Shown: positions 1,787 to 38,459 of the stretch, one piece after another
How the letters are laid out: every line of letters begins with the position of its first letter
How positions within the stretch are numbered: position 1 is the first letter of the stretch
Source of the DNA: Bacteroidia bacterium 43-41
GTDB lineage: Bacteria > Bacteroidota > Bacteroidia > Bacteroidales > Dysgonomonadaceae
Assembly (NCBI GenBank): GCA_001898165.1
Contig: MKTD01000031.1
Coordinates: 1 to 64,000, forward strand
Length of the DNA stretch: 64,000 nucleotides
Reading direction: 5' to 3'
Program-made: the position numbers and the translations under genes
The notes under the pieces: generated by a model
The model's input: the letters and a program-made list of their open reading frames with translations, nothing else
Database searches by the model: none
Told to the model about the DNA's origin: nothing

Positions 1787-1818
1787 AAATATCATTTTTC
1801 ACAGTCTAAATATCATTT
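1787..1818 (+). promoter_or_regulatory. Direct repeat upstream of the glycosidase cluster, possible activator site
   Basis: AAATATCATTT occurs at 1787-1797 and again at 1808-1818, a centre spacing of 21 bp or two helical turns. The pair lies just upstream of a TAnnTTTG box at 1847-1854. This geometry is what a dimeric regulator binding direct repeats would need. The identity of any regulator is unknown. Confidence 0.4.
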
Positions 1819-1846: not shown

Positions 1847-1854
1847 TATTTTTG
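1847..1854 (+). promoter_or_regulatory. Candidate -7 box for the rhamnosidase cluster
   Basis: TATTTTTG fits TAnnTTTG and lies 47 bases before the ATG at 1902. A TTTG at 1816-1819 is farther upstream than the usual -33 spacing, so the assignment is tentative. No stronger box is visible between the inverted-repeat element and the first glycosidase gene. Confidence 0.4.
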
Positions 1855-1901: not shown

Positions 1902-4535
1902 ATGAAACTTATAAAACCGGTAGAAATACTCATCTGCTCACTTATTTTTTTGAGCACCTTCGGATGTTCTCAAAGCAATATTTCAAAAATTACCGATTTG
2001 AAATGTGAAAACCTGCAGGATCCTTTGGGAATAAACACCTTACATCCGCGGTTCAGCTGGAAAAACACTTCGGATAAAGAAGGAACGAACCAGACTGCAT
2101 ATCAAATACTTGTTGCCGGCAGTGTCGGCAACTTAAGTGAAGGAAAGGCCGACTTCTGGAATTCCGGAAAAATTGAATCTCCTTCAACCATTCTGGTCGA
2201 TTATCAGGGAAAGGACCTTCATTCCAGGCAATTACTCTATTGGAAAGTTCGCGTGTGGGATGAAAACAACAACGTTTCGAAATGGAGTGAAACAGGTACC
2301 TTCAGCATCGGCATACTTGATGAAAGCGATTGGGCGGCTTCCTATATTGGTTATCCGACGGAAAACGGATTTCAAAATTGTCCCCAATTCAGGAAGGTAT
2401 TTTCAATAGAAAAGGTGAATAAGGACGAATCGTATTTACTACACATCAACAGCTTAGGGTATCACGAAGTGTATATTAACGGACAAAAGGTCGGCAACGA
2501 TGTTCTCTCACCTGCAGTTTCACAATTTAACAAACGTTCGCTGGTCAATACTTACGACGTTACATCGTACGTAAAAGCGGGTGAAAATAATCTAATGATC
2601 TGGTTAGGCAGCGGCTGGTATTCAAAAGGGCTGCCGGGAGTGATTGGTGAAGGGCCGTTGGTGAAAGCTCAACTGGAAAAGATTTCGGGACAATCATCCG
2701 AAAACATAGTGGTAACCGACGACACCTGGATGGCTCGAAACAGCGAATACACCCGGATCAGCGACTGGATGTCGGGAAGATACGGTGGAGAAGAAGTCTC
2801 TGGAAACCTGGAGACACAGAACCGCCTGTTTACAGAACCAGAAAAGCTAATCTGGAATAAAGCGTCCGTTGTAGAGGTTCCAAAGCACACGGTAACACCT
2901 CAAATGGTTGAACCAAACAGAATTACAAAAGAGATCAAACCCTCTAAGATAGATAAGCTGAACGACAGCACTTTTTTAGTGGATATGGGAACAACCCTTG
3001 CCGGATGGTTCGAGATAACCTTTCCCCAATTAAAAAAGAATCAGAAAGTTGTTTTGGAGTATTCCGACCATCTGGACGAGAACGGACAATTAGTCAATCA
3101 GGGGCAAACAGATCGTTACATAGCATCGGGTAACGGCACTGAATTCTTCAAAAATAAATTCAACTATCACGGGTTCAGGTATGTGAGGATATCAAATCTT
3201 TATGAAGCGCCCAAGCCCGCCTCCATTAAAGCATACCTCATCCGCACCGATTTTGAGCCCATTTCCGGTTTTGAATGCTCCGATACCGACCTGAACCGCA
3301 TTCACGATATGGTGTCTTATACGCTGCAATGCTTGGGGTTAGGCGGTTATCTGGTGGACTGTCCGCAAATTGAAAGGTTGGGCTACGGAGGCGACGGAAA
3401 CGCTTCTACCGTTACTGCCCAAACCATGTTTAACCTTGCTCCGCTTTATAGCAACTGGCTGGATGCATGGTCGGATGTGATCAGGGAAGACGGGAGTATG
3501 CCGCATACCGCCCCCAATCCATATTCAGCCGGAGGAGGGCCATACTGGTGCGGATTCATCATATCGGCCTCGTGGCACACTTACCAGAATTATGGAGACA
3601 TCAACGTGCTGAAAAAGTATTATCCGGTTATGCAGAAATGGCTCGGATACGTTGAAAAACATAGCATTGACGGATTATTGAAACGCTGGCCCAATACGGA
3701 TTACAGAAATTGGTACTTAGGTGATTGGGCTACGCCGGACGGAGTTGGGAATCCGAATCATCTGGATGAAAGGTCGGTTGACCTGGTGAATAATTGTTAC
3801 CTGTCCGTCTGTCTCAGCCAAATAGCGGATATTGCCGGCGTTTTGGGCAAAGAAGACGATAAGAAGCTCTATTCGGAAAAGAAAACTAATCTCAATAAAG
3901 TGATTCATAACACTTTTTTTGATGAACAACGAGGGTACTATTCCACCGGATCGCAAATTGATCTTATTTTTCCAATGCTTGCCGAAGCGGTTCCACAAAA
4001 TCAACACGATAATCTGATAAAGATATTGATGGAAAGAACGGAAAAGGAAGATAACGGACACCTCAATACCGGGCTCGTCGGAATACCCGTAATGATGGAA
4101 TGGGCCACGAAAAATAATCAACCGGAATTCATCTATTCCATGCTGAAAAAGAAAACATACCCCGGATATTTGTATATGCTGGACAATGGAGCCACAACCA
4201 CTTGGGAACACTGGAACGGAGCCAGAAGCAGAATACACAATTGTTATAACGGTGTGGGACAATGGTTCTACCAATCGATTGGAGGAATCCGCCAAATCGA
4301 TGGAAAAGTCGCGTATAGCGAATTTCTTGTCGATCCACAAATCCCGGCCGGGGTAACCTGGGCCAAAACCCGGATTAACACACCCAAAGGATGGATAAGT
4401 GTTCATTGGAAAATTTTGGACAGACGCATGAAAATGGACGTGGAAGTTCCTGTTGGTTCAATCGCCAAAGTAAAGTATTCCGACGGACTAGTTGAATTGC
4501 AGAGCGGAAAACATTCCATTGAATACCCGTTGTAA
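1902..4535 (+). CDS. GH78 alpha-L-rhamnosidase, lipoprotein
   Basis: This 877-residue GH78 enzyme is expected to cleave terminal alpha-L-rhamnose. The ATG at 1902 is preferred to a TTG at 1878 because it opens directly into a lipoprotein signal ending LSTFGC. Domains in order are an Fn3-like Rha_N segment (about 30-140), a carbohydrate-binding beta domain with YHEVYINGQKVG (about 150-330), a concanavalin-like domain, an (alpha/alpha)6 catalytic barrel (about 440-790) and a C-terminal beta-sandwich. The catalytic motif DCPQIERLGYGGD gives D486, E491 (general acid position) and D498; E769 in TTTWEHW is the base position. The usual Arg before E491 is Ile here. It is the first gene of the eight-gene cluster, 12 bp ahead of the next. 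Confidence 0.93.
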   Translation: MKLIKPVEILICSLIFLSTFGCSQSNISKITDLKCENLQDPLGINTLHPRFSWKNTSDKEGTNQTAYQILVAGSVGNLSEGKADFWNSGKIESPSTILVDYQGKDLHSRQLLYWKVRVWDENNNVSKWSETGTFSIGILDESDWAASYIGYPTENGFQNCPQFRKVFSIEKVNKDESYLLHINSLGYHEVYINGQKVGNDVLSPAVSQFNKRSLVNTYDVTSYVKAGENNLMIWLGSGWYSKGLPGVIGEGPLVKAQLEKISGQSSENIVVTDDTWMARNSEYTRISDWMSGRYGGEEVSGNLETQNRLFTEPEKLIWNKASVVEVPKHTVTPQMVEPNRITKEIKPSKIDKLNDSTFLVDMGTTLAGWFEITFPQLKKNQKVVLEYSDHLDENGQLVNQGQTDRYIASGNGTEFFKNKFNYHGFRYVRISNLYEAPKPASIKAYLIRTDFEPISGFECSDTDLNRIHDMVSYTLQCLGLGGYLVDCPQIERLGYGGDGNASTVTAQTMFNLAPLYSNWLDAWSDVIREDGSMPHTAPNPYSAGGGPYWCGFIISASWHTYQNYGDINVLKKYYPVMQKWLGYVEKHSIDGLLKRWPNTDYRNWYLGDWATPDGVGNPNHLDERSVDLVNNCYLSVCLSQIADIAGVLGKEDDKKLYSEKKTNLNKVIHNTFFDEQRGYYSTGSQIDLIFPMLAEAVPQNQHDNLIKILMERTEKEDNGHLNTGLVGIPVMMEWATKNNQPEFIYSMLKKKTYPGYLYMLDNGATTTWEHWNGARSRIHNCYNGVGQWFYQSIGGIRQIDGKVAYSEFLVDPQIPAGVTWAKTRINTPKGWISVHWKILDRRMKMDVEVPVGSIAKVKYSDGLVELQSGKHSIEYPL

Positions 4536-4547
4536 AAGCTAAAAATC

Positions 4548-7241
4548 ATGAATAAAAGTAAAATCATAATCTATTTAATCTTATTTTTTACTCAATCAGG
4601 AGTTTACTCGCAAGTTACCGTAAAAAACCTGAAATGTGAGTATTTGGACAACCCTGTCGGATTAGACGAAACTCATCCCCGTTTTACCTGGCAGATGGAA
4701 TTGTATAAACCGGGAAACCATCAATTAGCATACGAATTGGCAGTAGGGACAACAGAAGCAGACGTCGTGTCAGGAAAAGGTAACGTATGGGAATCGGGTA
4801 TTGTGGACAGTTCCGTAATTCCTGTTGTTTACGGGGGCAGGGAGTTAAATCCGTTTACCCGGTATTTCTGGAGCGTGCGGGTAAAAGACGAACACGAACA
4901 ATGGTCATCGTGGTCTCAACCTCATTTTTTTGAAACCGGCATGATGAGCCAACACAGGTGGAAAGGGAAATGGATTACCGACACGTACAATTTCAACGTG
5001 AAACCGGCGGCCTATTTTCGCAGGGCTTTCAAAACGGATAAAACCGTAAGCTCGGCACGGATTTATATAGCAGCAGCGGGACTTTACGAACTATCCATCA
5101 ACGGAAAACGTATCGGAGACCACCGGCTTGACCCATCCTATACACGCTTCGACCGGCGAAACTTATACGTAACATACGATGTGACCGGCAATCTGCAAAG
5201 AGGCGAGAACGTGCTGGGCGTTCTGTTGGGGAACGGCTGGTACAACCATCAATCCACCGCTGTATGGTATTTCGACAAAGCTCCGTGGCGCGCTCGCCCG
5301 AAATTCTGTATGGACTTACACATAACCTATTCCGACGGTTCAAAAGAGGTCATCGCAACGGATGAAAGGTGGACAACCTCACAAAGCCCCGTAATCTTTA
5401 ACAGCATCTACACGGCCGAGCACTACGATGCCCGAAAAGAACAGCCCGGATGGGACACCCCTGATTTCGATGCAAAGGGCTGGAAAAGCATTTACACCAC
5501 AGGAGCTCCGTCGCAAAACATAGTGGCGCAGGCCCTGCATCCGATTCGCAACGTCAGGGAATATCAGGCGGTGAGCCTGAAAAAAATAGACGAGCAGACG
5601 TGGCTTTACGATTTTGGGCAAAACATGTCGGGAGTAACCCGAATGAAAATAAACGGGCCTCAAGGCACAACAATCCGGTTGAAACATGTGGAGCGGCTCG
5701 ACTCGGCCGGACGCGCGGACATGTCGAACATCGATGTACATTACCGGCCTACGGACGACTCCGATCCTTTTCAAACGGACATCCTTATCCTGAGCGGTAA
5801 AAAAGAAGATGAGTTCATGCCCCGTTTTAACTACAAGGGATTTCAATATGTAGAAGTAACCTCGGATAATCCATTAAATCTGTCAAAAGAAAACCTGACG
5901 GCCTATTTTATGCACAGTGATGTACCGCCGGCAGGGAAAATAAATTCTTCCAACAACACCCTTAATAAAGCCTGGCAAGCCTCCAATGCATCCTATTTAT
6001 CCAATCTGTTCGGCTATCCTACCGATTGCCCTCAACGAGAAAAAAACGGCTGGACAGGTGATGCTCATATCGCCATTGAAACAGGGTTATATAATTTTGA
6101 CGGAATCACCGTTTATGAAAAATGGCTGGCAGACCATCGCGACGAACAACAGCCCAACGGTGTGCTCCCGGCCATTATACCGTCCAGCGGATGGGGTTAC
6201 CAATGGGCAAACGGGCCGGACTGGACAAGCACCATCGCCATTATTCCCTGGAATATCTACCTTTTTTACGGCGATACCCGATTACTGGAATTGTGTTACG
6301 ACAACATCAAACGGTATGTGGATTACATCGATGAACAATACCCATCGGGCATAACCGACTGGGGACTTGGCGACTGGGTACCTGTAAAATCCACAACACC
6401 TAAAGAATACACTTCAAGCGCTTATTTTTATATTGATGCAGTTATCCTTGCCAAAACAGCTAAACTGTTTGGAAAAACGATGGATTTTGAACGATATTCC
6501 GCCCTCGCAGAGAAAATAAAATCGGCCATCAATAAGAAATTCCTCCATTACGAAACGGGAATTTATGGAAGCGGTTTGCAAACCGAATTAAGTGTGGCCT
6601 TACATTGGAATTTAGTACCCGAAGAAATCAGAAATAAAGTAGCCGACAATTTAGCACGCCGCGTGGAACAGGATAACAAACACATCGACGTGGGATTATT
6701 AGGAACTAAGACCATCTTAAACGCATTAAGCGAAAACGGATACGCACAACTGGCCTACGAGGTAGCGTCACAGGAAACTTTTCCGTCGTGGGGCTGGTGG
6801 ATAGTGAACGGAGCAACTACCTTTTACGAGAACTGGCCGCTCGATGCAGGCAGCGATATCTCGTTGAACCACATCATGTTTGGCGAAATAAATGCCTGGT
6901 ACTACAAAGCATTGGGCGGAATTTTCCCAGATGAAAGTCGGCCCGGATTTAAAAATATTATGCTTAAGCCAAACTTTGTTACGGGTTTATCCCATTTTGA
7001 AGCCTCTCACGAAAGCCCTTACGGCAATATCGTTTCCTCATGGCAGAGAAGAGGGAAAACGATAGAATATAAAGTGACGGTTCCTGCAAACAGCACCGCA
7101 ACATTGTATTTAAACGGAAAGAATATCCGGGAAAACAATAAATCTCTCGAAAAAAATCCATTGATCGAGATAGAAAAATCGGATCAGGACCGGCAGGTAT
7201 TGCATTTAAAGGCCGGCTTTTATACGTTTTCCATAAAATAG
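4548..7241 (+). CDS. GH78 alpha-L-rhamnosidase, secreted
   Basis: This 897-residue GH78 enzyme has a cleavable signal peptide ending near GVYSQ, so it is probably periplasmic. The full family layout is present: N-terminal Fn3-like segment (NPVGLDETHPRFTWQ), beta domain with YELSINGKRIGDHRLDPSYT, catalytic (alpha/alpha)6 barrel and C-terminal sandwich with SPYGNIVSSW. The motif DCPQREKNGWTGD supplies D493, E498 and D505, and E761 sits in GATTFYENW, where the usual Trp before the base Glu is Tyr. It follows the lipoprotein GH78 by 12 bp and precedes the third GH78 by 15 bp, so cotranscription is likely. Known GH78 enzymes are inverting rhamnosidases; the linkage cannot be read from sequence. 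Confidence 0.93.
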   Translation: MNKSKIIIYLILFFTQSGVYSQVTVKNLKCEYLDNPVGLDETHPRFTWQMELYKPGNHQLAYELAVGTTEADVVSGKGNVWESGIVDSSVIPVVYGGRELNPFTRYFWSVRVKDEHEQWSSWSQPHFFETGMMSQHRWKGKWITDTYNFNVKPAAYFRRAFKTDKTVSSARIYIAAAGLYELSINGKRIGDHRLDPSYTRFDRRNLYVTYDVTGNLQRGENVLGVLLGNGWYNHQSTAVWYFDKAPWRARPKFCMDLHITYSDGSKEVIATDERWTTSQSPVIFNSIYTAEHYDARKEQPGWDTPDFDAKGWKSIYTTGAPSQNIVAQALHPIRNVREYQAVSLKKIDEQTWLYDFGQNMSGVTRMKINGPQGTTIRLKHVERLDSAGRADMSNIDVHYRPTDDSDPFQTDILILSGKKEDEFMPRFNYKGFQYVEVTSDNPLNLSKENLTAYFMHSDVPPAGKINSSNNTLNKAWQASNASYLSNLFGYPTDCPQREKNGWTGDAHIAIETGLYNFDGITVYEKWLADHRDEQQPNGVLPAIIPSSGWGYQWANGPDWTSTIAIIPWNIYLFYGDTRLLELCYDNIKRYVDYIDEQYPSGITDWGLGDWVPVKSTTPKEYTSSAYFYIDAVILAKTAKLFGKTMDFERYSALAEKIKSAINKKFLHYETGIYGSGLQTELSVALHWNLVPEEIRNKVADNLARRVEQDNKHIDVGLLGTKTILNALSENGYAQLAYEVASQETFPSWGWWIVNGATTFYENWPLDAGSDISLNHIMFGEINAWYYKALGGIFPDESRPGFKNIMLKPNFVTGLSHFEASHESPYGNIVSSWQRRGKTIEYKVTVPANSTATLYLNGKNIRENNKSLEKNPLIEIEKSDQDRQVLHLKAGFYTFSIK

Positions 7242-7256
7242 ATAACATTGTTACAT

Positions 7257-9974
7257 ATGAATAAGTATTGGGTTTTAATTCTGTTTATCGCTGCAATCCA
7301 TCTCAGCTTTAGTCCGGAAAACTCATCTGATCATGTAAAGTTTGCCAGGCTTGTATGCGAGTATGAAGAATCTCCATTATTGGTTGAAGCACAAACTCCC
7401 CGCTTCGGATGGCAATTACAGTCAGCGGAAAATGGACTTGAACAAACAGCTTACGAATTAGAGGTACTCGACAATAAAAACAAAAGCGTTTGGAGATCAG
7501 GAAAAATTCTATCCGACAAAAGTCAACATATTCCGTACACGGGAAAAACCCAATTAAGTGCCGGTGAAAAATATCAATGGCGGGTTCGCATCTGGGACAA
7601 TAAAAACAGAAGCTCGTCGTGGAGTGAAAAAGCCGGTTTTCGTTTGGCCCCTGATAAAAGACAACTCAATGCCCTCTGGATAGGAGCGATAAAGAGAGAG
7701 GATTCTCGTCTTCCGGGCGGAAGAAACTACCATAACATACCCGATTCCTCCGACAAAGGAGAGCTTTGGCGGCAGACAGATCCGCTGTCGAGGAGAAGCA
7801 TTTATTTGCGGAAGTCGTTCTCTACTCAAAGACAAATCAAAGATGCGATGGTTTATATTAGCGGATTGGGGCACTACGAACTCTCGTTAAACGGGAAGAA
7901 AATCGGTAATGATCAATACAATCCGTTGTGGAGCGACTATGACAAGACCGTCTATTACAACGCCTACGACCTTACTGAAGAATTAAGAAGGGGGGACAAC
8001 ACGGTAGGAGTACTTCTCGGAAACGGATTTTACAACGAACAAGGCGGACGGTACAAAAAAATGCAGGTAAGTTTCGGTCCCCCCACCCTGTTTCTGACAA
8101 TATCCATCACCTATGCAGACGGCACAAAAGAAGAAATCATATCCGACAAAAAGTGGAAATATTCTCCCAGCCCCATCGTCTTCAACAGCATGTATGGAGG
8201 AGAAGATTATGACGCCCGTCTTGAACAACCGGGATGGAACACGCCGGGTTTTGATGATTCTCAATGGCTGCCGGTGGTTATTGACAACGCCCCTCATGGA
8301 GAATTAAAACCTCAAACTTCAACTCCGGTAAGGGAGGCGGAGCATTTCACCATCAAAGCGAGCAGGAAAACAGGCGAATCGTATGTGTTGGATATGGGGC
8401 AGAATCTCTCCGGTTACCCCTTGTTCACCGTAAAAGGGAAACGGGGTGATAAAATTCGTTTGACAGTTGCCGAACGAATAAACGACGACGGCACTATCAA
8501 TCAAACACAATCCGGAGGTCCTTATTATTACGAATACACGCTGAAGGGGGAAGGCGAAGAGACCTGGCAGCCCCGATTTTCATATTACGGGTTCAGGTAT
8601 ATTCAGGTAGAAGGAGCAAAACTACCGGAGTCACAAGACAACAGGGATATTCCGGTTATAAAAGATATAAAATCCTGTTTTGTTTACAACTCAGCCGAAC
8701 CGACGGGTAGTTTTCATTCTTCCAACGAGATTTTCAATAACGTGCACAACCTGATTGTAAATGCTATAAAAAGCAATATGCAAGCCGTGTTCACCGATTG
8801 TCCGCACAGGGAAAAACTCGGATGGTTGGAAGAACTTCATCTGAATGGACCCGGATTGTACTACAACTTCAATCTCGCCCGGCTTGCTCCTAAAATCATG
8901 CAGGACATTCGCGATGCACAGTTGCCAAACGGTCTGGTAACAAGTATCGCTCCCGAATATGTGATTTTTGACGGTGGGTTTCGTGACTCTCCCGAATGGG
9001 GAAGCGCCGGTGTGATTTTCCCGTTTATGTATTACGAATTTTACGGGGACAACTCGCTGATTGTTGAGTATTACGATGTCATGAAAAGGTACGTCGATTA
9101 CCTGACTACAACAGCAACGAACCACATCGTTTCACACGGGCTGGGTGATTGGTGCGATTATCGGGAAGATCAGCCTTACGGCGCCTCGCACAATACCCCC
9201 ATTGCATTATCCGCAACGACCCATTATTTTATGGTTATCGATTACTTGGTACAGGCGGCTGAGATGCTCAGTAAAAAAGAAGACATAACATTCTATTCCA
9301 ATCTCCGAGAAAAGGTAAAAACCGCTTTTAACAACGAGTTTTTTAACGAAAAGACCAAACAATACGGAACCGGAAGCCAGGCTTCCAACGCCATGCCTTT
9401 GTTTGCGGGATTGGTTAACCCAAAAGATAAACAGGCAGTCCTCGATAACCTGGTTAAAGATATCGAAGAAAAAGGATACAGGCTTTCCACCGGTGATGTG
9501 GGAAACCGGTATCTGTTTCAGGCACTGGCAATTAACGGGCTGAATGAAGTGATGTACAAAATGCATGATCATAACGAAGTACCGGGTTACGGTTTTCAGC
9601 TCCAGTTTGGCGCAACCACACTGACAGAGCTTTGGGATCCGAGAAAAGGCGCTTCGTGGAATCATTTCATGATGGGGCAGATCGAAGAGTGGTTCTATAG
9701 GTCGCTGGCAGGTATTGATACAGACGAAAACGCCCACACCGGATTCAAGAACTTTAAAATCGCGCCACAAGTTGTAGGAGATTTAAAGTTTGTGAATGCT
9801 GCTTACAACTCGTTGTACGGAATAATCAAGGTGGACTGGAAGGTGGATAACGGGCAGTTTGAAATGGATATCGAAATTCCGGTTAATTGCGAAGCGAAAG
9901 TATATCTGCCTCAGGAAACCCATTATATCCCCGTAAAAAGCGGGAAGTACAGCTTCAAGAAGAGATTGCAGTAA
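7257..9974 (+). CDS. GH78-family alpha-L-rhamnosidase with variant active-site loop
   Basis: The start is placed at ATG 7257 rather than TTG 7248, giving 905 residues with a signal peptide (MNKYWVLILFIAAIHLSFS). GH78 domains are recognisable: Fn3-like N-terminus (TPRFGWQLQ), beta domain (YELSLNGKKIGNDQYNPLW), a jelly-roll segment, catalytic barrel and C-terminal sandwich (NSLYGIIKVDW). The motif is DCPHREKLGWLEE, so D514 and the general acid E519 are retained, but the GW-x-GD ending is replaced by GWLEE, putting E526 where Asp normally binds substrate. The base position is E791 in TLTELW. This points to a distinct GH78 subgroup, perhaps with different subsite specificity. The fourth gene follows after 123 bp. 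Confidence 0.88.
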   Translation: MNKYWVLILFIAAIHLSFSPENSSDHVKFARLVCEYEESPLLVEAQTPRFGWQLQSAENGLEQTAYELEVLDNKNKSVWRSGKILSDKSQHIPYTGKTQLSAGEKYQWRVRIWDNKNRSSSWSEKAGFRLAPDKRQLNALWIGAIKREDSRLPGGRNYHNIPDSSDKGELWRQTDPLSRRSIYLRKSFSTQRQIKDAMVYISGLGHYELSLNGKKIGNDQYNPLWSDYDKTVYYNAYDLTEELRRGDNTVGVLLGNGFYNEQGGRYKKMQVSFGPPTLFLTISITYADGTKEEIISDKKWKYSPSPIVFNSMYGGEDYDARLEQPGWNTPGFDDSQWLPVVIDNAPHGELKPQTSTPVREAEHFTIKASRKTGESYVLDMGQNLSGYPLFTVKGKRGDKIRLTVAERINDDGTINQTQSGGPYYYEYTLKGEGEETWQPRFSYYGFRYIQVEGAKLPESQDNRDIPVIKDIKSCFVYNSAEPTGSFHSSNEIFNNVHNLIVNAIKSNMQAVFTDCPHREKLGWLEELHLNGPGLYYNFNLARLAPKIMQDIRDAQLPNGLVTSIAPEYVIFDGGFRDSPEWGSAGVIFPFMYYEFYGDNSLIVEYYDVMKRYVDYLTTTATNHIVSHGLGDWCDYREDQPYGASHNTPIALSATTHYFMVIDYLVQAAEMLSKKEDITFYSNLREKVKTAFNNEFFNEKTKQYGTGSQASNAMPLFAGLVNPKDKQAVLDNLVKDIEEKGYRLSTGDVGNRYLFQALAINGLNEVMYKMHDHNEVPGYGFQLQFGATTLTELWDPRKGASWNHFMMGQIEEWFYRSLAGIDTDENAHTGFKNFKIAPQVVGDLKFVNAAYNSLYGIIKVDWKVDNGQFEMDIEIPVNCEAKVYLPQETHYIPVKSGKYSFKKRLQ

Positions 9975-9981
9975 ACAGCTC

Positions 9982-10050
9982 ATGAATCGACTGTTTTTCG
10001 CAATTTTCTTAGCTTTAGGGCCTGAACGCTCTAATCGTTTCGTTGGATAG
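9982..10050 (+). pseudogene. Short signal-peptide-like frame, possible gene remnant
   Basis: An ATG at 9982 opens a 22-codon frame, MNRLFFAIFLALG followed by nine residues and a stop. The first half looks like the start of a secretion signal, like those of the neighbouring glycosidases, but nothing continues it in this or another frame before the GH127 start. It may be the stub of a lost secreted gene or chance. Confidence 0.2.
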
Positions 10051-10097
10051 AAGCAGAAAAAAATATATAACTGACATTATAATTAAAATTTATTCTC

Positions 10098-11972: not shown

Positions 11973-11990
11973 ACATTTAATCATTTACAA

Positions 11991-13757: not shown

Positions 13758-13779
13758 ATTCATATTTAAGCAAAACATC

Positions 13780-16700
13780 ATGGTAAAGATTTTATGTGGC
13801 CTCTCTCTCTTTCTATTACTTTTTACTTCATGTAAAAAAAATAACACAGAGACCATTCACCAACGATCAAAGTACCTGGAATCCGGTTTTATTTCCCCAC
13901 CCGACTCAGTTCAAACCAGTGTTTACTGGTACTGGATCTCCGATAATATCTCCAAGGAAGGGGTTATTAAAGACCTCCATGCCATGAAAGAGGTGGGAAT
14001 AAACAGGGCTTTTATCGGCAATATCGGACTCAATGACATTCCTTCCGGAAACGTTAAAATGTTTACTGATGAATGGTGGGAAATTATGCATTTAGCTTTA
14101 AAGACAGCCTCGGAATTAGGTATCGAAATAGGGATATTCAACTCTCCCGGGTGGAGTCAGTCGGGTGGGCCATGGATAAAACCCGAAGAATCGATGCGCT
14201 ACCTTACTTCTTCCCGGTTAGAGGTGGAAGGACCCCGAAAAATATCGCAAAAGATTGATTCGCCTGCCGATTTTTTTCAGGATGTAAAAGTATTGGCATA
14301 CCGGATGCCCAGTGCCGTTCAATCGGATGTAAACGACAAGAACGCGACAATAAGCTCGACTCCTTCCCACCAACAGTTGTCGAGGATCGTTGATAAAAAC
14401 GGAACTACCTCCATTCCAATCTCTCCGGTAAGTGAATTTACTATTACGTTTGATACCCGGCAACCCTTTACGGCAAGAAGTGTTACTGTCACACTGGCCG
14501 AAATATCGGCTTCTGTCGAAGCGGTCTTTCAGGCTAAAAACGACAGAGGAGAATACAGAACTGTTTCGGAATTCAGCGTCAACCGCTCGAACATAAATCT
14601 GAACGTAGGTTTCACGCCTTTCGCTCCTGTCGTCATTTCCATACCGGCTACAACATCACAAAGCTTTAAACTGGTTCTTAAAAACATACGCCGACCTTTG
14701 AACCTGGCCGAGGTAGAAATCAGCTGTTTGCCTAAGGTGGAAAGGTACAGTGAAAAAACATTAGCCAAGATGCACCCTACCCCTCTGCCTTACTGGGATG
14801 CTTATCTTTGGCCGGAACAACCCGAAGCGGATGACAGAAGCCTGGCAATCCAAACAAACCAGATAATCGATATTTCGCAATCTCTTTCTGCGGATGGAAC
14901 CTTAAATTGGGAGGTACCTGAAGGAAACTGGATAATCCTGCGGATGGGGATGACGACAACCCGCGTGACAAACAGCCCTGCCTCTCCCGAAGCGACCGGT
15001 CTGGAAGTCGATAAAATGAGCAAAAAGCGGGTAGCTGAACATTTCGACAGGTTTATAGGAGAAATCATAAGACGGGTACCCGAACGGGACAGGAAAACGT
15101 TCAAAGTTGTAGTACAGGATAGTTACGAAACCGGAGGACAAAACTTTACCGACGGGTTCCTCGATGAATTCAGGGAGAGATACGGGTATAACCCTGTGCC
15201 TTTCCTGCCTGTATTCGAAGGAGTGGTAGTAAGCAACCGACTCGAATCAGACCGTTTCCTTTGGGATCTGAGAAGAATGATCGCAGACAAGGTCGCTTAC
15301 GATTATGTAGGAGGCCTGAGAGAAGTAAGTCATCAACACGGTTTAACCACTTGGCTCGAAAATTACGGGCACTGGGGATTTCCGGGTGAGTTTTTGATGT
15401 ACGGTGGCCAGTCGGATGAAATTGGCGGTGAGTTCTGGAGTCAGGGTGAACTGGGCGATATTGAAAATCGCGCGGCCACCTCTGCCGGACATATTTATGG
15501 CAAAAATAAAATCTCCGCCGAGTCAAATACATCAGGAGGACCCGCGTATTCACGGTATCCGGCGATGATGAAACAGCGTACAGACCGCTTTTTCGCTGAA
15601 GGGATCAACAATACGCTCCTGCATGTTTACATCATGCAACCTTACGAAGAAAAAAATCCCGGAGTGAATGCCTGGTTTGGAAATGAATTCGACCGAAAGA
15701 ACACATGGTTCTCACAAATGGATCTCTTTACCCAATACCTGAAGCGGACCAATTTCATGTTGCAACAGGGACTCAATGTTGCTGATGTGGCCTATTTTAT
15801 TGGGGAAGATGCGCCTAAAATGACAGGGATAGCGGATCCTCCTCTTCCGGCAGGTTATCAGTTTGATTACATGAATGCCGAAGTAATCCTGCGGGATATG
15901 ACTGTGAAAGATGGCATCCTTACCCTCCCTCATGGTACTCAGTATCGGATCCTGGCGCTTCCAAAATTAGAAACCATGCGCCCGGAGGTACTTGCAAAGA
16001 TCAAGGAACTGGTATATAACGGAGCTGTGGTACTCGGGCCGGCGCCCGAACGTTCGCCAAGCCTGCAAAACCAGCCTGAGGCCGACAAACAGGTACGTAC
16101 AATGGCGGCAGAACTATGGGGTGAAGTTGACGGAACGAAAGTAAAACAGAGGCAATATGGGAAAGGGAAGATCATGAACGGCCTAACCCTTGAAGAAGCT
16201 TTCGATAAGATTGGACTTCTCCCCGATTGCAAATTGCCGGAAGACAACTCCATTCATTACGGACACCGTACAATGGAAGGAATCGAGATTTATTTCCTTT
16301 CCAACCAGACGGATCAGGAGACAGTAATCCGGCCTGAATTCAGGGTAACCAGTAAACAGCCGGAACTGTGGGAAGCGACAACCGGCTCTATAAGGGATTT
16401 GCCGGCCTATGAGCAAAGGGAAAAAACGACCGTGGTTCCGGTAAAACTGGCACCCTATGAAAGTGTTTTTATCGTATTTAAAGACAAGTCAGGAAATAGT
16501 AAACTGACGGATATCTCGGATAATTATCCTGAACCGGAAATCATTGAAGAGCTGAAAGGGCCGTGGAGTGTTGCATTTGATCCCGCCTTCAGGGGACCTG
16601 CGAATCCGGTGATTTTTGAAACTTTACGCGACTGGACTACCTCCCAAAACGACTCCATAAAGTATTATTCCGGAACTGCCGTTTATTCGATTGCATTCAC

Positions 16701-17034
16701 TGCACCCGGAAACACGGAGAATAAGACCGTTGTGATCGACTTGGGTAAGCTGACGGCAATGGCCAAAGTGAAAATAAACGGCAATGATGCCGGAGGTGTC
16801 TGGACCTATCCCTACAAGCTGGATATCACCCAATGGGTGAACCCGGGTCAAAATGAACTGGAGATAGAGGTAGTAAACAACTGGATGAACCGGTTGATTG
16901 GAGATCAGAATCTGTCTGATGCACAAAGGAAAACTTGGTGTTACGTCAACCCCTATAACGCTCAGAGTGCGTTACAACCTTCAGGGCTGTTCGGACCTGT
17001 TACAATCCAGTTGTTGCATTATCAAAATAAATAA
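13780..17034 (+). CDS. GH106 alpha-L-rhamnosidase, lipoprotein
   Basis: This 1,084-residue protein has a lipoprotein signal ending LFTSC. The N-terminal catalytic part shows GH106 hallmarks: VYWYWISDNISKEGVIKDL, GIFNSPGWSQSGGPWIKPEESM, QDSYETGGQNFTDGF and SAESNTSGGPAYSRYP. E450 in DSYE and E581 in SAES are the best candidates for catalytic acids, by position in conserved motifs only. The C-terminal third ends in a galactose-binding-like beta domain (AMAKVKINGNDAGGVWTYPYKLDIT). Known GH106 enzymes remove alpha-L-rhamnose from rhamnogalacturonans, including RG-II. It lies between the short GH78-like gene and another GH78 in the same orientation, adding a second unrelated rhamnosidase fold to the cluster. 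Confidence 0.9.
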   Translation: MVKILCGLSLFLLLFTSCKKNNTETIHQRSKYLESGFISPPDSVQTSVYWYWISDNISKEGVIKDLHAMKEVGINRAFIGNIGLNDIPSGNVKMFTDEWWEIMHLALKTASELGIEIGIFNSPGWSQSGGPWIKPEESMRYLTSSRLEVEGPRKISQKIDSPADFFQDVKVLAYRMPSAVQSDVNDKNATISSTPSHQQLSRIVDKNGTTSIPISPVSEFTITFDTRQPFTARSVTVTLAEISASVEAVFQAKNDRGEYRTVSEFSVNRSNINLNVGFTPFAPVVISIPATTSQSFKLVLKNIRRPLNLAEVEISCLPKVERYSEKTLAKMHPTPLPYWDAYLWPEQPEADDRSLAIQTNQIIDISQSLSADGTLNWEVPEGNWIILRMGMTTTRVTNSPASPEATGLEVDKMSKKRVAEHFDRFIGEIIRRVPERDRKTFKVVVQDSYETGGQNFTDGFLDEFRERYGYNPVPFLPVFEGVVVSNRLESDRFLWDLRRMIADKVAYDYVGGLREVSHQHGLTTWLENYGHWGFPGEFLMYGGQSDEIGGEFWSQGELGDIENRAATSAGHIYGKNKISAESNTSGGPAYSRYPAMMKQRTDRFFAEGINNTLLHVYIMQPYEEKNPGVNAWFGNEFDRKNTWFSQMDLFTQYLKRTNFMLQQGLNVADVAYFIGEDAPKMTGIADPPLPAGYQFDYMNAEVILRDMTVKDGILTLPHGTQYRILALPKLETMRPEVLAKIKELVYNGAVVLGPAPERSPSLQNQPEADKQVRTMAAELWGEVDGTKVKQRQYGKGKIMNGLTLEEAFDKIGLLPDCKLPEDNSIHYGHRTMEGIEIYFLSNQTDQETVIRPEFRVTSKQPELWEATTGSIRDLPAYEQREKTTVVPVKLAPYESVFIVFKDKSGNSKLTDISDNYPEPEIIEELKGPWSVAFDPAFRGPANPVIFETLRDWTTSQNDSIKYYSGTAVYSIAFTAPGNTENKTVVIDLGKLTAMAKVKINGNDAGGVWTYPYKLDITQWVNPGQNELEIEVVNNWMNRLIGDQNLSDAQRKTWCYVNPYNAQSALQPSGLFGPVTIQLLHYQNK

Positions 17035-17122
17035 ACCATCAGATCCTACTACCCCACATGTCGAGCCGCCCACCGAATATCAGTCAGGATCAGTTTGTAA
17101 TTGATTTTAAATGGAAAATTAT

Positions 17123-19909
17123 ATGAAAACAAGAAACTTACTTTTAACAATCATTTTTTTATCAGCCGTTTTCCCACTGTTTTCTCAGGAACAAGGGGCT
17201 ATATATCCTACGGAATTAACCACCGAATACCTCGTTGATCCGACAGGATTGGATGTGCGGCAACCGCGGTTTAGCTGGAAGCTGGCCGCTGCAAATCCGG
17301 AAGATTTTGGCAAGGCGCAGAGTGCATATCGTATTTTGGTGAGCTCTACAAAACGGGATCTCGATGAGAATAAGGGCAATTTATGGGATACGGGATGGAT
17401 CTCCTCTGATGAGATGCAACTCATTGAGTACAAAGGGAAAGAGTTGGAGTCCGACCAAGGTTGCTTTTGGAAAGTATCGGTAAAGGACGAAAAGGGCAAC
17501 CCGTCAAAATTCAGCGGGACAGCATCCTTCACTACCGGTCTGTTTGATGATGCGGAATGGACAGCAAAATGGATCGGCACCGCCGAAATATATGACCCTT
17601 CAAAAGGTTCCAATAAAATCTACGATCCGTGGTTCAGAAAATCTTTCGATTTAAAGCAGAAACCCTCCAAGGCGACCCTGTTTATTGCTTCGGTTGGTTA
17701 TCACGAAGTGTATGTGAACGGTCAAAAAATTGGTGACCACGTATTGGCGCCGGCTGTGACCGACCACACGCAACGTGCCCGCTACATCGCCTACGACATT
17801 GCTCCGGAGTTAAAACAAGGCAAAAATGTCATCGCTTTGTGGTTGGGAACATCGTGGGCAATTTATGCGCCCTATGCCACCCCCGATAAACCCCGCACAC
17901 CTATCGTGACGGCTCAAACCGATATTTTCGGAAAAAATAACCAAAAGTTGGCAAGGATTGTTACCGATGAGTCGTGGAAAACGCATCCCAGCCCCAATAA
18001 ACTCATCGGAAACTGGGGATTCGGAGTTGGCGGATACGGCGGCGAGATCTGGGATGCCAACAAGGAGATTGGCAACTGGAACCAGGCAACATATAACGAT
18101 CAAACATGGGACAGGGCAACGGTTTACACCCCGGCGCTGAAACTGTCTGCCCAACGTGTGGAAACGAACGTATTGTTCGACGAAATCAGACCCGTTGAAA
18201 TCGAAAGCCGCCCCGATGGAACCTACCGGATAGACATGGGTGTGAATTTTGCGGGATGGACACAGATCGACGTCAACGGAAAACCCGGCGACACTGTCCG
18301 CTTCCAGTTTTCTGAACGCCAACAGGACGATATGACCTTTGGGTTACATAACTTATATGTCATCGGCCCTTCCGGGAAAGGGACTTTCAAAAACAGGTTT
18401 AATTATAGCTCCGGAAGATGGATTACCATTAAAGGCCTGAAATCGGCCCCGAAAAAGGAAGAGATAAAAGGATGGATGGTCCGCACCAATTTCGCGGATG
18501 TCGCTTCGTTTGAATGTTCCAATCCGTTGCAAAACTGGATTTACAACACCGTGAACTGGACCTTCGAGAACCTCTCTCTCGGCGGGTATATCGTTGACTG
18601 CCCGCAACGCGAACGGTTCGGCTACGGCGGTGATGCGCACGCTACATCCGAAACCGGAATGCTTAATTACCAGCTGGGTGCGTTCTACAACAAATGGCTC
18701 GAAGATTGGCGTGATGTACAGGGAACCGAGCCAATGGTCGGAAACATGAACGATCCCGACTGGGCCCATAAACAGGAGGGGAGCGGCAGAAAGCTCGGAG
18801 GAGGCATTTTGCCTCAAACGGCACCCACTTATCACGGCGGAGGCGGACCTGCATGGGGCGGGATTGTGGTTACCCTGCCCTGGTTTATGTACCAATATCA
18901 AGGTGATGTGCGCGTCCTCAAAGAAAATTTTGAGATGATAAAAGGTTGGCTCGCGTTCCTGGATACCCACGTAGAGAACAACCTGCTCCAACGATACGGC
19001 GGCCGATGGGATTTTCTGGGCGACTGGCTTTGGCCCGAGGCAACCGCACAAGGGATGAACAACTACTCCGACGAGAACCTGTTCTTCAACAATTGTTACT
19101 GGATTTATAACTTAAAAACGGGTGCAAAGGTGGCCGAAGTGATCGGAAAAACGGTTGAAGCCCAAAAGTGGAAACGTCAGGCGGAGATCTCAGGCAAGGC
19201 ACTCCACGACAAATATTTTCACGCCGATGATTACAATTACTCCGATAAAACCATGCGAAGCCTTTCCGCCGCGTTATACGGAGATATAATGCCTGCAGAA
19301 CTACGTCCGCGGGTGATTCAACGGCTCGAAGAAGAAATTCTCGTTAACCGCAAAGGCCATATCGATGTGGGAATTACCGGCGGCGCGATGCTTTTCAAGG
19401 TATTGCGCGAAGAAGGCCGCGACGACCTTATCTACTCCATGACATCGCAAACCACCTATCCCGGTTGGGGGCTGATGCGCGAAAACGGTGCCACCACCAT
19501 CTGGGAGATGTGGGAAAAAGATCTGCCCGGACATTCACTGTTGCACAGTTCCTACCTCTATCCCGGCGCATGGTACATCGATGGAGTGGCAGGCATCCGG
19601 AGGAGGGACGATTCGCCCGGATTCAGAAAGTTTGACATCCGCATTCCGAAATTTTCAGAAGAACAGATATCGTGGGCAAAAGCCGATTTTAACTCTCCTG
19701 CCGGGATGATACACTCGCATTGGAGGAGGGAAAACGGGAAAACAACACTTTCCGTAACCGTTCCACCCAATTGCGAGGCAACCGTTTATTTCCCCGATGA
19801 ATCCGGCAGGGAAATCCGTGAAAATTCCGGTTTTGCAAAACAGAAGGGCAAAAAAGAGGGTTACGTACTTTTTGAAATTCCTTCGGGAAAGTATATCTTT
19901 GAGAACTAA
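17123..19909 (+). CDS. GH78 alpha-L-rhamnosidase, secreted
   Basis: The start at ATG 17123 (MKTRNLLLTIIFLSAVFPLFSQ) gives a clean signal peptide and 928 residues; an upstream in-frame ATG at 17111 would add four residues. It has the full GH78 layout: Fn3-like N-terminus with DPTGLDVRQPRFSWKL, beta domain with YHEVYVNGQKIGDHVLAP, catalytic barrel and C-terminal sandwich. The active-site motif DCPQRERFGYGGD gives D492, E497 and D504, and E795 sits in TTIWEMW. It shares the GYGGD version with the first gene of the cluster, and both also have SLGGY/GLGGY before the motif, so these two are probably close paralogs. It follows the GH106 gene by 88 bp. Confidence 0.93.
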   Translation: MKTRNLLLTIIFLSAVFPLFSQEQGAIYPTELTTEYLVDPTGLDVRQPRFSWKLAAANPEDFGKAQSAYRILVSSTKRDLDENKGNLWDTGWISSDEMQLIEYKGKELESDQGCFWKVSVKDEKGNPSKFSGTASFTTGLFDDAEWTAKWIGTAEIYDPSKGSNKIYDPWFRKSFDLKQKPSKATLFIASVGYHEVYVNGQKIGDHVLAPAVTDHTQRARYIAYDIAPELKQGKNVIALWLGTSWAIYAPYATPDKPRTPIVTAQTDIFGKNNQKLARIVTDESWKTHPSPNKLIGNWGFGVGGYGGEIWDANKEIGNWNQATYNDQTWDRATVYTPALKLSAQRVETNVLFDEIRPVEIESRPDGTYRIDMGVNFAGWTQIDVNGKPGDTVRFQFSERQQDDMTFGLHNLYVIGPSGKGTFKNRFNYSSGRWITIKGLKSAPKKEEIKGWMVRTNFADVASFECSNPLQNWIYNTVNWTFENLSLGGYIVDCPQRERFGYGGDAHATSETGMLNYQLGAFYNKWLEDWRDVQGTEPMVGNMNDPDWAHKQEGSGRKLGGGILPQTAPTYHGGGGPAWGGIVVTLPWFMYQYQGDVRVLKENFEMIKGWLAFLDTHVENNLLQRYGGRWDFLGDWLWPEATAQGMNNYSDENLFFNNCYWIYNLKTGAKVAEVIGKTVEAQKWKRQAEISGKALHDKYFHADDYNYSDKTMRSLSAALYGDIMPAELRPRVIQRLEEEILVNRKGHIDVGITGGAMLFKVLREEGRDDLIYSMTSQTTYPGWGLMRENGATTIWEMWEKDLPGHSLLHSSYLYPGAWYIDGVAGIRRRDDSPGFRKFDIRIPKFSEEQISWAKADFNSPAGMIHSHWRRENGKTTLSVTVPPNCEATVYFPDESGREIRENSGFAKQKGKKEGYVLFEIPSGKYIFEN

Positions 19910-19935
19910 TTATATATATAAAACTAATTTTTCAT

Positions 19936-22662
19936 ATGAGACACACCATTTTATTCATCACCGTTTTACTTTCCGTTCTGTTGATCGGATGTAAAGAAGG
20001 GGAGCTGAACATAGCCTCCCTGAAAGTTGAAATGCAGGAAAATCCGGAAGGATTGGGCACGTTGACCCCACGGTTTTCGTGGCAGATTACCTCCGTGTCT
20101 CCCGATCTTATTCAGCAATCGTATCAGATTCAGGTTGCTCAGTCGGAAAATGATCTGAAAAAGGGAGAAAATCTTTTATGGGATTCGGGAATCGTCAGCA
20201 GCGACGAGTCGGTGCTCATTCCCTACCGGGGCCAACCCCTCTCGTCGAGAGGCAAATACTATTGGCGCGTAAAAGTTGACACCAGTCAAGGTAGCGGCAA
20301 TTGGAGCAAAATCAATCATTGGTCGATGGCGCTATTGAACGATTCAGAGTGGCAGGCAAAATGGATTGGCGAGGACTCCCTTTCCAATCCCAACGAAACG
20401 GATAAGGAGAACACCCGATTGGCCGCGCGCTATTTGAGAAAACCTTTCGATGCGAAAAACAGTAAAATCAACCGTGCCATCCTTTACATTGCAGGGCTCG
20501 GTGCACACGAGGCTTACCTGAACGGGAAGCGGGTTTCGGAAGATATCTTTTCTCCGACGGTTTCGTGGTTTCCCAACAGGGTTTATTACAATACGTATGA
20601 CGTAACCCCGCTCCTGCAGAAAAACGAAAACCTGCTGGCCGTTAAACTGGGTAACGGCAGGTATTTTGGAATGAGGGGATCACCCGACCAGATGTTCGGG
20701 TTACCCCGCTTACTGGCTCAATTAGAAATAGAATATTCCGATGGAAGTATGGAGGTGATACCGAGTGATGAATCCTGGAAAGTCACCTCAAAAGGACCGA
20801 TCATCGCCAACAATGAGTTCGACGGAGAAGAATACGATGCCCGGCTCGAACTGACCGGATGGGAAACATCCATCTACGATGATACCGCATGGCAACAAGC
20901 GGATATAATGCCCGCTCCCGGAGGCAAACTCACCCCTCAACCCAACCCCAACATCCGGGTGATGGAAGAGATAAAACCGGTGAAGATCTCCAGACTTGCC
21001 GATGGTAAATTTATCCTCGACATGGGCCAGAACATGGTTGGATGGCTGAAGATAAACAGTTTGAACGGAAAAAAGGATCAACCCGTAACGATGCGTTTTG
21101 CTGAAATATTGAATCCGGACAGCACCCTTTATCTCGCAAACATTCGCTCCGCGAAGGTAACGGATATTTATACTCCCGCCAAAGACGGGGTGTTTACCTG
21201 GGAGCCTTCGTTTGTCTATCACGGTTTCCGTTTTGTTGAGGTATCGGGATTGGATGAACAACCCGAACTATCCAGCTTTACCGGAAAAGTGGTTTACGAC
21301 AGAATGGAAACTACCGGACAGTTCGAGACCTCCAACAGCATCATCAATCAAACGTTTAAAAATGCCTACTGGGGAATTCGCGGAAACTACCGCGGGATGC
21401 CCACCGACTGCCCGCAGCGCGATGAACGTCAAGGCTGGCTGGGTGACCGGGCAACCGGATGCTTCGGCGAAGCTTTTATTTTCAACAACGCCTTGCTGTA
21501 CGGCAAATGGACGCAGGACATAGAGGATTCTCAAAATCCAGAAGGAAGTATCTCAGTAGTTTCGCCCCGTTACTGGACCATTTACAACGACGATGTAACG
21601 TGGCCGGCAGCTTATTTTTATGCAGCGAAGATGCTTTACCATCAATACGGCGATACGGAACCCATCAGAAAGCATTATCCGTCCATGAAACGATACCTGG
21701 AACATATTCAGCAGGTATCCATGCAAGATTTCATCCTTACAAAAGACACCTACGGCGATTGGTGTATGCCCCCCGAAAAACAGGAATTGATCCACTCGCA
21801 GGATCCTTCGCGTAAGACTGCCGGAGCTGTTTTAAGTACTACCATGTATTATAGCCTGCTCAACCTGATGATTGAATTTGCACAATTAACCGGGAACCAG
21901 CAGGACATTCAGGGGTTTAAAGAGCTGGCAAGCCGCATAAAAGAGGCTTACAATACAAAATTCTTCAACGCCGATTCTGCAAAATACGACAATAACACGG
22001 TAACGGCAAACATCCTTTCTCTCCGGCTGGGTTTAGTTCCCGAGGGACAGGAACAGAAAGTGTTTGAAAACATCGTTAAGAAAACGGAAGTTGATTTTAA
22101 CGGGCACGTCAGCACCGGGGTACTCGGAATACAGCAACTGATGCGTGGGCTCACACAGTATGGGAACGTTGATCTGGCCTATAAAATTGCGACAAACGAT
22201 ACCTACCCGAGTTGGGGGTACATGATTAAAAAAGGAGCCACTACCATTTGGGAGCTTTGGAACGGAGATACGGCCGATCCGGCAATGAACTCCGCCAATC
22301 ATGTGATGTTGCTCGGCGACCTTGTCATTTGGTATTACGAAGATTTGGCCGGAATTAAAAACCACCCCGGAAGTGTGGCTTATAAAAAACTATGGATGGA
22401 ACCCATGTTTCCCGAAGGACTTTCGCACGTAAAGGCATCTTATAAATCGGTTTACGGAGAGATCAAAAGCGAATGGACAAAAGAAGACGGCCTGTTCAGC
22501 TGGAACATCACTATTCCGGGCAATACTTCCGCAACAGTAAAATTACCGAAAGGCCTGAATATCGTGAAACCCGATCAAAAAGGAGTCCGGAACTTCAAGG
22601 AAACCGATTCGGGAATTGAAATAGAATTAGGATCCGGCAACTATGTACTATCCGGCCAATAA
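19936..22662 (+). CDS. GH78 alpha-L-rhamnosidase, lipoprotein
   Basis: This 908-residue enzyme has a lipoprotein signal ending LLIGC. Domains follow the GH78 order, with Fn3-like N-terminus (NPEGLGTLTPRFSWQI), beta domain (AHEAYLNGKRVSEDIFSP), jelly-roll, catalytic barrel and C-terminal sandwich (SVYGEIKSEW). The active-site motif is DCPQRDERQGWLGD, the longer version with one extra residue found in Streptomyces avermitilis Rha78A; the acid is E497 and flanking acids are D491 and D504, with E773 in TTIWELW as the base. It is the last gene of the cluster and is followed by an inverted-repeat element rather than an obvious terminator. It represents a GH78 subgroup different from the other five. 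Confidence 0.93.
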   Translation: MRHTILFITVLLSVLLIGCKEGELNIASLKVEMQENPEGLGTLTPRFSWQITSVSPDLIQQSYQIQVAQSENDLKKGENLLWDSGIVSSDESVLIPYRGQPLSSRGKYYWRVKVDTSQGSGNWSKINHWSMALLNDSEWQAKWIGEDSLSNPNETDKENTRLAARYLRKPFDAKNSKINRAILYIAGLGAHEAYLNGKRVSEDIFSPTVSWFPNRVYYNTYDVTPLLQKNENLLAVKLGNGRYFGMRGSPDQMFGLPRLLAQLEIEYSDGSMEVIPSDESWKVTSKGPIIANNEFDGEEYDARLELTGWETSIYDDTAWQQADIMPAPGGKLTPQPNPNIRVMEEIKPVKISRLADGKFILDMGQNMVGWLKINSLNGKKDQPVTMRFAEILNPDSTLYLANIRSAKVTDIYTPAKDGVFTWEPSFVYHGFRFVEVSGLDEQPELSSFTGKVVYDRMETTGQFETSNSIINQTFKNAYWGIRGNYRGMPTDCPQRDERQGWLGDRATGCFGEAFIFNNALLYGKWTQDIEDSQNPEGSISVVSPRYWTIYNDDVTWPAAYFYAAKMLYHQYGDTEPIRKHYPSMKRYLEHIQQVSMQDFILTKDTYGDWCMPPEKQELIHSQDPSRKTAGAVLSTTMYYSLLNLMIEFAQLTGNQQDIQGFKELASRIKEAYNTKFFNADSAKYDNNTVTANILSLRLGLVPEGQEQKVFENIVKKTEVDFNGHVSTGVLGIQQLMRGLTQYGNVDLAYKIATNDTYPSWGYMIKKGATTIWELWNGDTADPAMNSANHVMLLGDLVIWYYEDLAGIKNHPGSVAYKKLWMEPMFPEGLSHVKASYKSVYGEIKSEWTKEDGLFSWNITIPGNTSATVKLPKGLNIVKPDQKGVRNFKETDSGIEIELGSGNYVLSGQ

Positions 22663-22842: not shown

Positions 22843-22850
22843 TACTTTTG
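22843..22850 (+). promoter_or_regulatory. -7 box for the DUF3316 gene
   Basis: TACTTTTG fits TAnnTTTG, 25 bases before the ATG at 22876. This position argues against the TTG at 22855 as a start. Confidence 0.55.
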
Positions 22851-38422: not shown

Positions 38423-38451
38423 TACATGTTTAAAAACTATGTTATAAAGCA

Positions 38452-38459
38452 CAAAAATA
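38452..38459 (-). promoter_or_regulatory. -7 box for the Crp/Fnr regulator gene
   Basis: CAAAAATA reads TATTTTTG on the minus strand, 30 bases upstream of ATG 38422. Confidence 0.5.

Follow-up and report, generated by a model that had tools for sequence, protein, structure and literature searches.

Glycan loci of Bacteroidota are usually found, and named, by a SusCD pair together with a local sensor. In Bacteroides, the RhaR regulon, which is governed by a regulator of the AraC family, is reported to consist of a rha catabolic operon with RhaT and the AraC-family regulator (PMC3878776, PMC3870299), and one of these reports presents it as a single operon (PMC3878776). In Actinomycetales and Thermotogales, one rhamnose regulator spans both catabolism and the use of rhamnose oligosaccharides; several RhaR regulons of Actinomycetales include rhamnosidases, several include an ABC-type importer, and the regulators belong to the LacI and DeoR families, unlike the AraC-family protein considered here (PMC3870299). 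Within the Dysgonomonadaceae, the family that includes Petrimonas and Proteiniphilum, polysaccharide utilization loci of Petrimonas contain GH78 and GH106 among the pectin-related families, and a Petrimonas genome has GH127 and GH106 as two of its dominant families; those loci are defined by susCD pairs (PMC7768429), of which the unit described here has none.

The genome analyzed here resembles Bacteroides in possessing a rha operon with RhaT and an AraC-family regulator, and differs from the system described there in that the predicted operator is found not only at the rha operon but also upstream of a 21-kb run of rhamnosidase genes and, in relatives, of SusCD loci. We consider it likely, from sequence comparison, that this cluster, g1-g8, is a SusCD-less operon of exported rhamnosidases (plus one GH127-type enzyme) within the L-rhamnose (RhaR) regulon of the genome, and we regard it as probably a battery for harvesting rhamnose in general, not as proof that one exotic glycan is the target. 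Control of g1-g8 by RhaR would enlarge a regulon that is reported as a single operon in Bacteroides (PMC3878776). No report of a RhaR-controlled rhamnosidase operon in Bacteroidota was recognized in open PubMed Central, mostly at the level of titles and abstracts.

Layout and enzymes of the cluster

The window, that is, the whole 64-kb stretch of DNA that was analyzed, begins at the first base of a contig that is 70.5 kb long and belongs to a 3.6-Mb draft genome. A Pfam run on 30 of its larger open reading frames (ORFs) bears out the original prediction of an eight-gene glycosidase run on one strand between 1902 and 22662, with the family order GH78, GH78, GH78, GH127, compact GH78, GH106, GH78, GH78. 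All eight products look exported, and the intergenic gaps are 6-123 nt long. The features of the unit are as follows.

1790-1818, plus strand: predicted RhaR-type operator, TATCATTTTTCACAGTCTAAATATCATTT, with the direct repeat ATCA/ATCA, 21 bp apart
1847-1854, plus strand: TAnnTTTG box (TATTTTTG), which we take to be a Bacteroidota -7 promoter box, 28 nt downstream of the operator
1902-4535, plus strand: g1, GH78 alpha-L-rhamnosidase (Pfam), lipobox-like start (FGC); acid motif DCPQIERLGYGGD, base motif ATTTWEHW
4548-7241, plus strand: g2, GH78 alpha-L-rhamnosidase (Pfam); DCPQREKNGWTGD, base Glu in ATTFYENW
7248-9974, plus strand: g3, GH78 alpha-L-rhamnosidase (Pfam), likely start at 7257; DCPHREKLGWLEE, base Glu in ATTLTELW
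10098-11972, plus strand: g4, GH127-type beta-L-arabinofuranosidase-like enzyme (Pfam E 1.3e-42); ETC and CC motifs
11991-13757, plus strand: g5, compact GH78-like protein of 588 aa (Pfam E 1.9e-17), Asp at the acid position (DGIKRDRLVWVGD)
13780-17034, plus strand: g6, GH106 alpha-L-rhamnosidase (Pfam E 3e-227), lipobox-like start (TSC)
17111-19909, plus strand: g7, GH78 alpha-L-rhamnosidase (Pfam); DCPQRERFGYGGD and ATTIWEMW
19936-22662, plus strand: g8, GH78 alpha-L-rhamnosidase (Pfam), lipobox-like start (IGC); DCPQRDERQGWLGD and ATTIWELW
22843-22850, plus strand: next TAnnTTTG box between genes, upstream of g9 (DUF3316), where the unit probably ends on the right

The presence of three kinds of rhamnosidase and the lack of SusCD in the cluster, both claimed at the outset, stand as well. 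All eight genes encode glycosidases, so that there is no SusC, SusD or regulator inside g1-g8; the unit thus lacks the susC/susD pair that serves as the criterion for a polysaccharide utilization locus, and among its eight genes there is also no backbone-cleaving enzyme or lyase. The claim that no regulator is present holds for the cluster but not for the window, where a Crp-family regulator with no evident link to g1-g8 is encoded 15 kb away (37721-38452). In the plus-strand gaps between genes, from the 5' flank to g8, the only TAnnTTTG box is the one at 1847, and the next one in a gap is that at 22843, so that transcription of g1-g8 as one unit is plausible. Export of the enzymes to the periplasm or the cell surface is suggested by their start sequences, and both the exported look and the lipobox-like Cys of g1, g6 and g8 were judged by eye.

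Five of the six GH78 enzymes that had been claimed (g1, g2, g3, g7 and g8) have the full architecture of the family: the N, concanavalin-like, 6-hairpin and C-terminal domains were all found by Pfam (6-hairpin E 8.6e-74 to 2.9e-107), and the acid and base carboxylates are present in every one of them. Variation within the acid motif consists in the replacement of the last Asp by Glu in g3 and of Trp by Tyr in g1 and g7. The sixth, g5, is a short, divergent member, aligned to 3cih and 2okx, in which the 6-hairpin domain and the acid/base pair were found, with the base in ATTFWENF, and in which Pfam found no N-terminal GH78 domains. In g6, the GH106 domain and both Glu residues of the catalytic region are present in alignment with 6q2f and 5mqm; in g4, a GH127 domain, the Zn/Cys site and the acid Glu were found, and the ETC and CC motifs align with those of solved GH127 enzymes. 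These motifs were detected by pattern in g1, g5, g7 and g8, by alignment with other GH78 proteins of the cluster in g2 and g3, and by alignment with solved relatives in g4 and g6; the catalytic roles of the GH78, GH106 and GH127 residues in g1-g4 and g6-g8 are those presumed for these families. In the case of g5, the Asp at the acid position matches Asp222, which KoRha is reported to use as the acid (PMC4690510). Rhamnogalacturonan-II (RG-II) had been listed among the known targets of such gene sets; for the GH127 enzyme this was not borne out, g4 being rejected as an RG-II aceric acid hydrolase with 149.8 bits against the NCBIfam model NF049879, for which the curated cut-off is 950.

The five full-length GH78 paralogs show only 25-34% pairwise identity, as against 73-91% between the genes of the cluster and their congener orthologs; judging from this comparison, the paralogs are not recent copies, and differing specificities among them are plausible. 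The cluster accounts for all six over-threshold matches to the GH78 6-hairpin domain in the 3.6-Mb genome, a seventh match, on another contig, falling under the cut-off. The second GH106 gene of the genome is located on contig C68, in a separate SusCD locus for which neither the operator pattern nor the matrix described below gave a match.

The predicted operator in the genome and in the family

The rhaB promoters of the family have a common 29-bp element, which recurs before g1 with unchanged register and forms a predicted AraC-type operator of 29 bp with a 21-bp direct repeat there. The operator pattern matches once in the window (0 matches in 100 shuffles) and exactly twice in the entire 3.6-Mb genome, one match being upstream of g1 and the other upstream of rhaB, as against 0 matches to the reversed pattern. 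The g1 site was already known when this pattern, and the half-pattern that selected the training sites of the matrix, were defined, and therefore a matrix made from 11 distinct rhaB-promoter sites of other genomes, with the own genome left out, was used as a check. By this matrix, the g1 site scores 22.9 and ranks first in the window, followed by a site at 11.9, while the highest score in 20 mononucleotide shuffles was 17.3; the g1 site remains well below the genome's own rhaB site, which scores 35.0 and is identical to one of the training sites, from a congener. The rha operon, located on another contig, consists of rhaB, rhaA and rhaT, followed by the AraC-family regulator gene (L182, 12959-13927). 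Thus, the features expected of a member of the RhaR regulon are found together, namely, an operator in common with the rha operon, set at a constant spacing from the -7 box, and an AraC-family gene next to the rha genes. Beside rhaB, there is also a second, inverted operator-like site (L182, 8942-8970) that faces a divergent operon.

Across the family, the operator pattern is matched in 63 of 101 genomes and has no match in the other 38; altogether there are 115 sites, compared with 4 matches to the reversed pattern, and since the genomes are related these counts are not independent events. The largest class comprises 45 sites before rhaB, to which 13 divergent partners of rhaB sites are added. 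Another 13 sites, in 11 genomes and with that of the window included, precede runs with GH78 or GH106 genes, the glycosidase gene being the first in 9 of the 13 runs and SusC being found in two, within the part of each run that was covered. The remaining sites lie before SusC (9), before other genes (11), inside ORFs (12) or with no gene in view, many of these at contig ends (12). A TAnnTTTG box follows 27-30 nt downstream at 43 of the 45 rhaB sites, all 13 divergent sites, 12 of the 13 glycosidase sites, 8 of the 9 SusC sites, 7 of the 11 other-gene sites and 10 of the 12 sites with no gene in view, compared with none of the 12 inside ORFs, which amounts to 93 of the 103 sites outside long ORFs; the chance rate of this box at four offsets, in the window, is about 0.2%.

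Rhamnosidases accompany the catabolic genes themselves in many of these genomes: GH78 or GH106 genes are found in 20 of the 45 rhaB runs, and compact GH78 genes of the g5 type in 11 of the 45, nine of which contain a further GH78 gene. Pfam was also run on 14 unclassified proteins encoded downstream of operator sites, in sets of ten and four. The first set comprised one each of an RGL11 lyase, a PcRGLX-like lyase, a BT_1020-like protein, a protein with a BT_3657-like domain, a GH2 enzyme, a fasciclin-domain protein and a transposase, together with three proteins with no match; the second comprised a GH88 protein, an oxidoreductase, a protein with a 3-keto-disaccharide hydrolase domain and one with a sub-threshold match only. 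Some of the operator-preceded SusCD loci encode rhamnogalacturonan lyases (RGL11, PcRGLX-like), a BT_1020-like protein or a GH88 protein.

An appealing generalization, toward which we lean slightly, is that in the Dysgonomonadaceae the activator of rhamnose catabolism could be a family-wide master switch, set over SusCD-less rhamnosidase batteries and over SusCD loci with rhamnogalacturonan lyases alike. The operator would then join compact GH78 genes, large rhamnosidase operons and rhamnogalacturonan loci across the family into one circuit, and the monosaccharide freed from one glycan, or by a neighbor, would open the attack on all rhamnose-bearing glycans, a departure from the usual logic of one sensor per glycan.

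Probable rhamnose control and competing scenarios

How would such a cluster function without its own import and sensing genes? The regulator of the AraC family whose gene closes the rhaB-rhaA-rhaT operon probably binds 1790-1818 in the presence of rhamnose or a product of it, and the bound regulator would activate the promoter at 1847; given that the candidate activator site lies at the fixed distance from the -7 box, the same protein would switch on both operons. The g1-g8 enzymes would then strip terminal rhamnose from several kinds of glycosides, either at the cell surface or in the periplasm; possible substrates are rhamnogalacturonan fragments, gums and small rhamnosides. The freed rhamnose would enter via RhaT and further induce both operons, and import of oligosaccharides, if needed at all, could proceed via the SusCD pairs of other loci; there are 50 SusD-like_3 matches elsewhere in this genome. 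Wired in this manner to a monosaccharide pathway, the cluster could do without a SusCD pair and a sensor of its own, and the operator held in common with the rha operon would explain why no regulator is found in the cluster. Furthermore, the one other place in this genome where the operator occurs is the rha catabolic operon, so that the regulation suggests rhamnose, and not one particular polymer, as the inducer. Clusters of this type would be missed, or left unexplained, by searches based on SusCD, whereas the operator assigns the cluster to a regulon by sequence alone and predicts the inducer.

The alternative that fares best, although we still judge it to be the less probable account, is that the cluster is a remnant of a former full SusCD polysaccharide locus from which the import and sensing genes were lost. 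Between the same anchors, the congener G048 carries an interval of approximately 63 kb with all eight orthologs in the same order and the same right flank, to which are added two SusCD pairs, a GntR-UTRA regulator, an MFS permease, two isomerase-like genes, and five further GH78-type and four further GH106-type genes. Genome G049 agrees with G048 over the part that was fetched (g2-g8), and a second SusD was detected there as well. Compared with these larger loci with SusCD and GntR, the missing SusCD in the present genome is, on the evidence of gene content, a local variant. Compatible with loss are also the isomerase-like gene located between g2 and g3 in G041, G048 and G049 and absent from the window, and the SusCD pair before g1 in G048, which is 84 and 81% identical to the pair that precedes g1-g2 in G039, a member of another genus. 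However, all eight enzymes retain open frames and motifs, and the predicted promoter and operator are present. In the congener G043, the operator is followed by g1-g2-g3 (79, 85 and 83% identical to those of the window) and, directly after g3 in this operator-led cluster, by the L-rhamnose mutarotase gene rhaM (L259, 8656-8970; E 8.8e-30), with no SusC or SusD in the 9.3 kb examined; the same operator-g1-g2-g3 start makes the SusCD-less arrangement look like a maintained form. No rhaM is found within the g1-g8 run of the window. It is also possible that SusCD was gained in G048.

Gene content differs in other congeners as well. G045 has kept g1, g2 and g5-g8, along with the permease, GntR and one isomerase-like gene, with no SusCD between the anchors, and G041 has kept g1, g2, g3 and g5 and carries other SusC-like genes farther to the right. 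The anchor proteins of G045 and G048 are 93.9% identical, those of the present genome are 89% identical to both, and those of G041 84-87% identical to all. Operators vary as well: a near-match precedes g1 in G045 (matrix score 18.3); in G048, sites that score 23.6 and 24.8 precede a GH106 gene and SusC, respectively, both upstream of g1, the g1 ortholog following the SusCD pair whose operator, scoring 24.8, departs from the exact pattern. In the three stretches around the G041 cluster, the matrix found no operator-like site before g1, the best, at 11.2, being before g2, and in the fragment of G044 no site scored above 14.7. A different motif, approximately GCAATTC-N-TACAGT-N-AAAATATCATTT, occurs before g2 in G041 (L136, 1684) and next to GntR in G048 (L132, 7346) and G045 (L138, 17719); it is related to but distinct from the RhaR-type operator and may be a second operator. 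Also in G045, a frame of 1736 aa (L138, 4403-9613) may represent a fusion of g7 and x864, a GH78-like gene, which are separate in G048.

The history of g5 appears to be distinct: its product is 89% identical to the copy in G052, from another genus, compared with 77% to that of G048 (73-81% among congeners), and a quick tree, for a group chosen after the identities had been seen, rejects the grouping of the genus in one clade (p-AU 0.0003). Given the greater proximity to G052 together with the rejection of this clade, g5 was probably exchanged.

The original prediction was that the cluster could serve one unusually rhamnose-rich glycan with many rhamnosyl linkages, each requiring its own enzyme. 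In its favor, the GH78 paralogs are deeply divergent and are kept at high identity in congeners, and the lyases and the BT_1020-like or GH88 proteins in some of the operator-preceded SusCD loci of the family make pectin rhamnogalacturonans a plausible source. Nevertheless, we regard a single dedicated glycan as unlikely: the unit has no enzyme that cleaves a backbone, no lyase and no SusCD, the genes around the core differ strongly among congeners, and the operator common to the rha operon points to rhamnose itself, a monosaccharide regulator appearing to be in control.

Similarly doubtful, in our opinion, is the view that the enzymes act mainly on small, diffusible rhamnosides (of flavonoid, saponin or glycolipid type) that would need no SusCD. 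In the comparison with the PDB, which among the GH78 proteins of the cluster took in g1, g2, g5 and g8, the best solved relatives of g1, g2 and g8 are 6i60, followed by 3w5m and 6gsz, and that of g6 is 6q2f; these are, as we take it, largely flavonoid- or gum-active enzymes, which fits this view. On the other hand, the substrates of GH78 enzymes are not fixed by sequence similarity, and Pfam revealed no aglycone-handling gene beside the cluster among the larger ORFs of the window that were submitted to it. General harvesting of rhamnose under RhaR control, which is the reading we prefer, allows for small rhamnosides as one possible group of substrates.

The left flank and the contig start

The window begins at the first base of its contig, and extension to either side had been suggested as the way to find SusCD and a regulator. 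Followed to the left through linked contigs, the locus leads to CRISPR-Cas instead. At the contig start there are two CRISPR repeats (73-201 of the window, 77-bp period), and 20 further matching repeats of the array are on contig C73; C73 also holds cas2, an IstB-type transposition gene and three integrase-like genes. The conserved genes of the left anchor (gyrase B, D-Ala-D-Ala ligase and others) are located on contig C76, followed by a cas9 fragment at the contig end. With the repeats split between the contig start and C73, and cas9 following the left anchor, CRISPR-Cas would lie to the left of g1-g8, and the likely order is left anchor, CRISPR-Cas, g1-g8, right anchor. Between the CRISPR repeats and g1, the minus strand contains a 195-aa ORF (680-1267) with no Pfam match.

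Relatives of the extra genes of G048 were sought in the present genome: none was found for its GntR or for one of the isomerase-like proteins at E 1e-20, and the SusD that adjoins g1 in G048, compared with 10 of the 50 SusD loci of the present genome, showed at best 30% identity. It is accordingly highly improbable that the lack of SusCD results from the contig end, notwithstanding the start of the window at contig base 1 and the unassembled stretch from C76 to C73, considering that the CRISPR repeats link the contig start to C73 and the left anchor on C76 leads into cas9, that g1 has its own predicted promoter and is preceded by 1.6 kb of unrelated sequence, and that a search of the genome at E 1e-40 gave no relative of the other G048 SusD. 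At their ends, C73 and C76 carry nearly identical sequence, which suggests that one kind of mobile element is present in both the CRISPR array and cas9.
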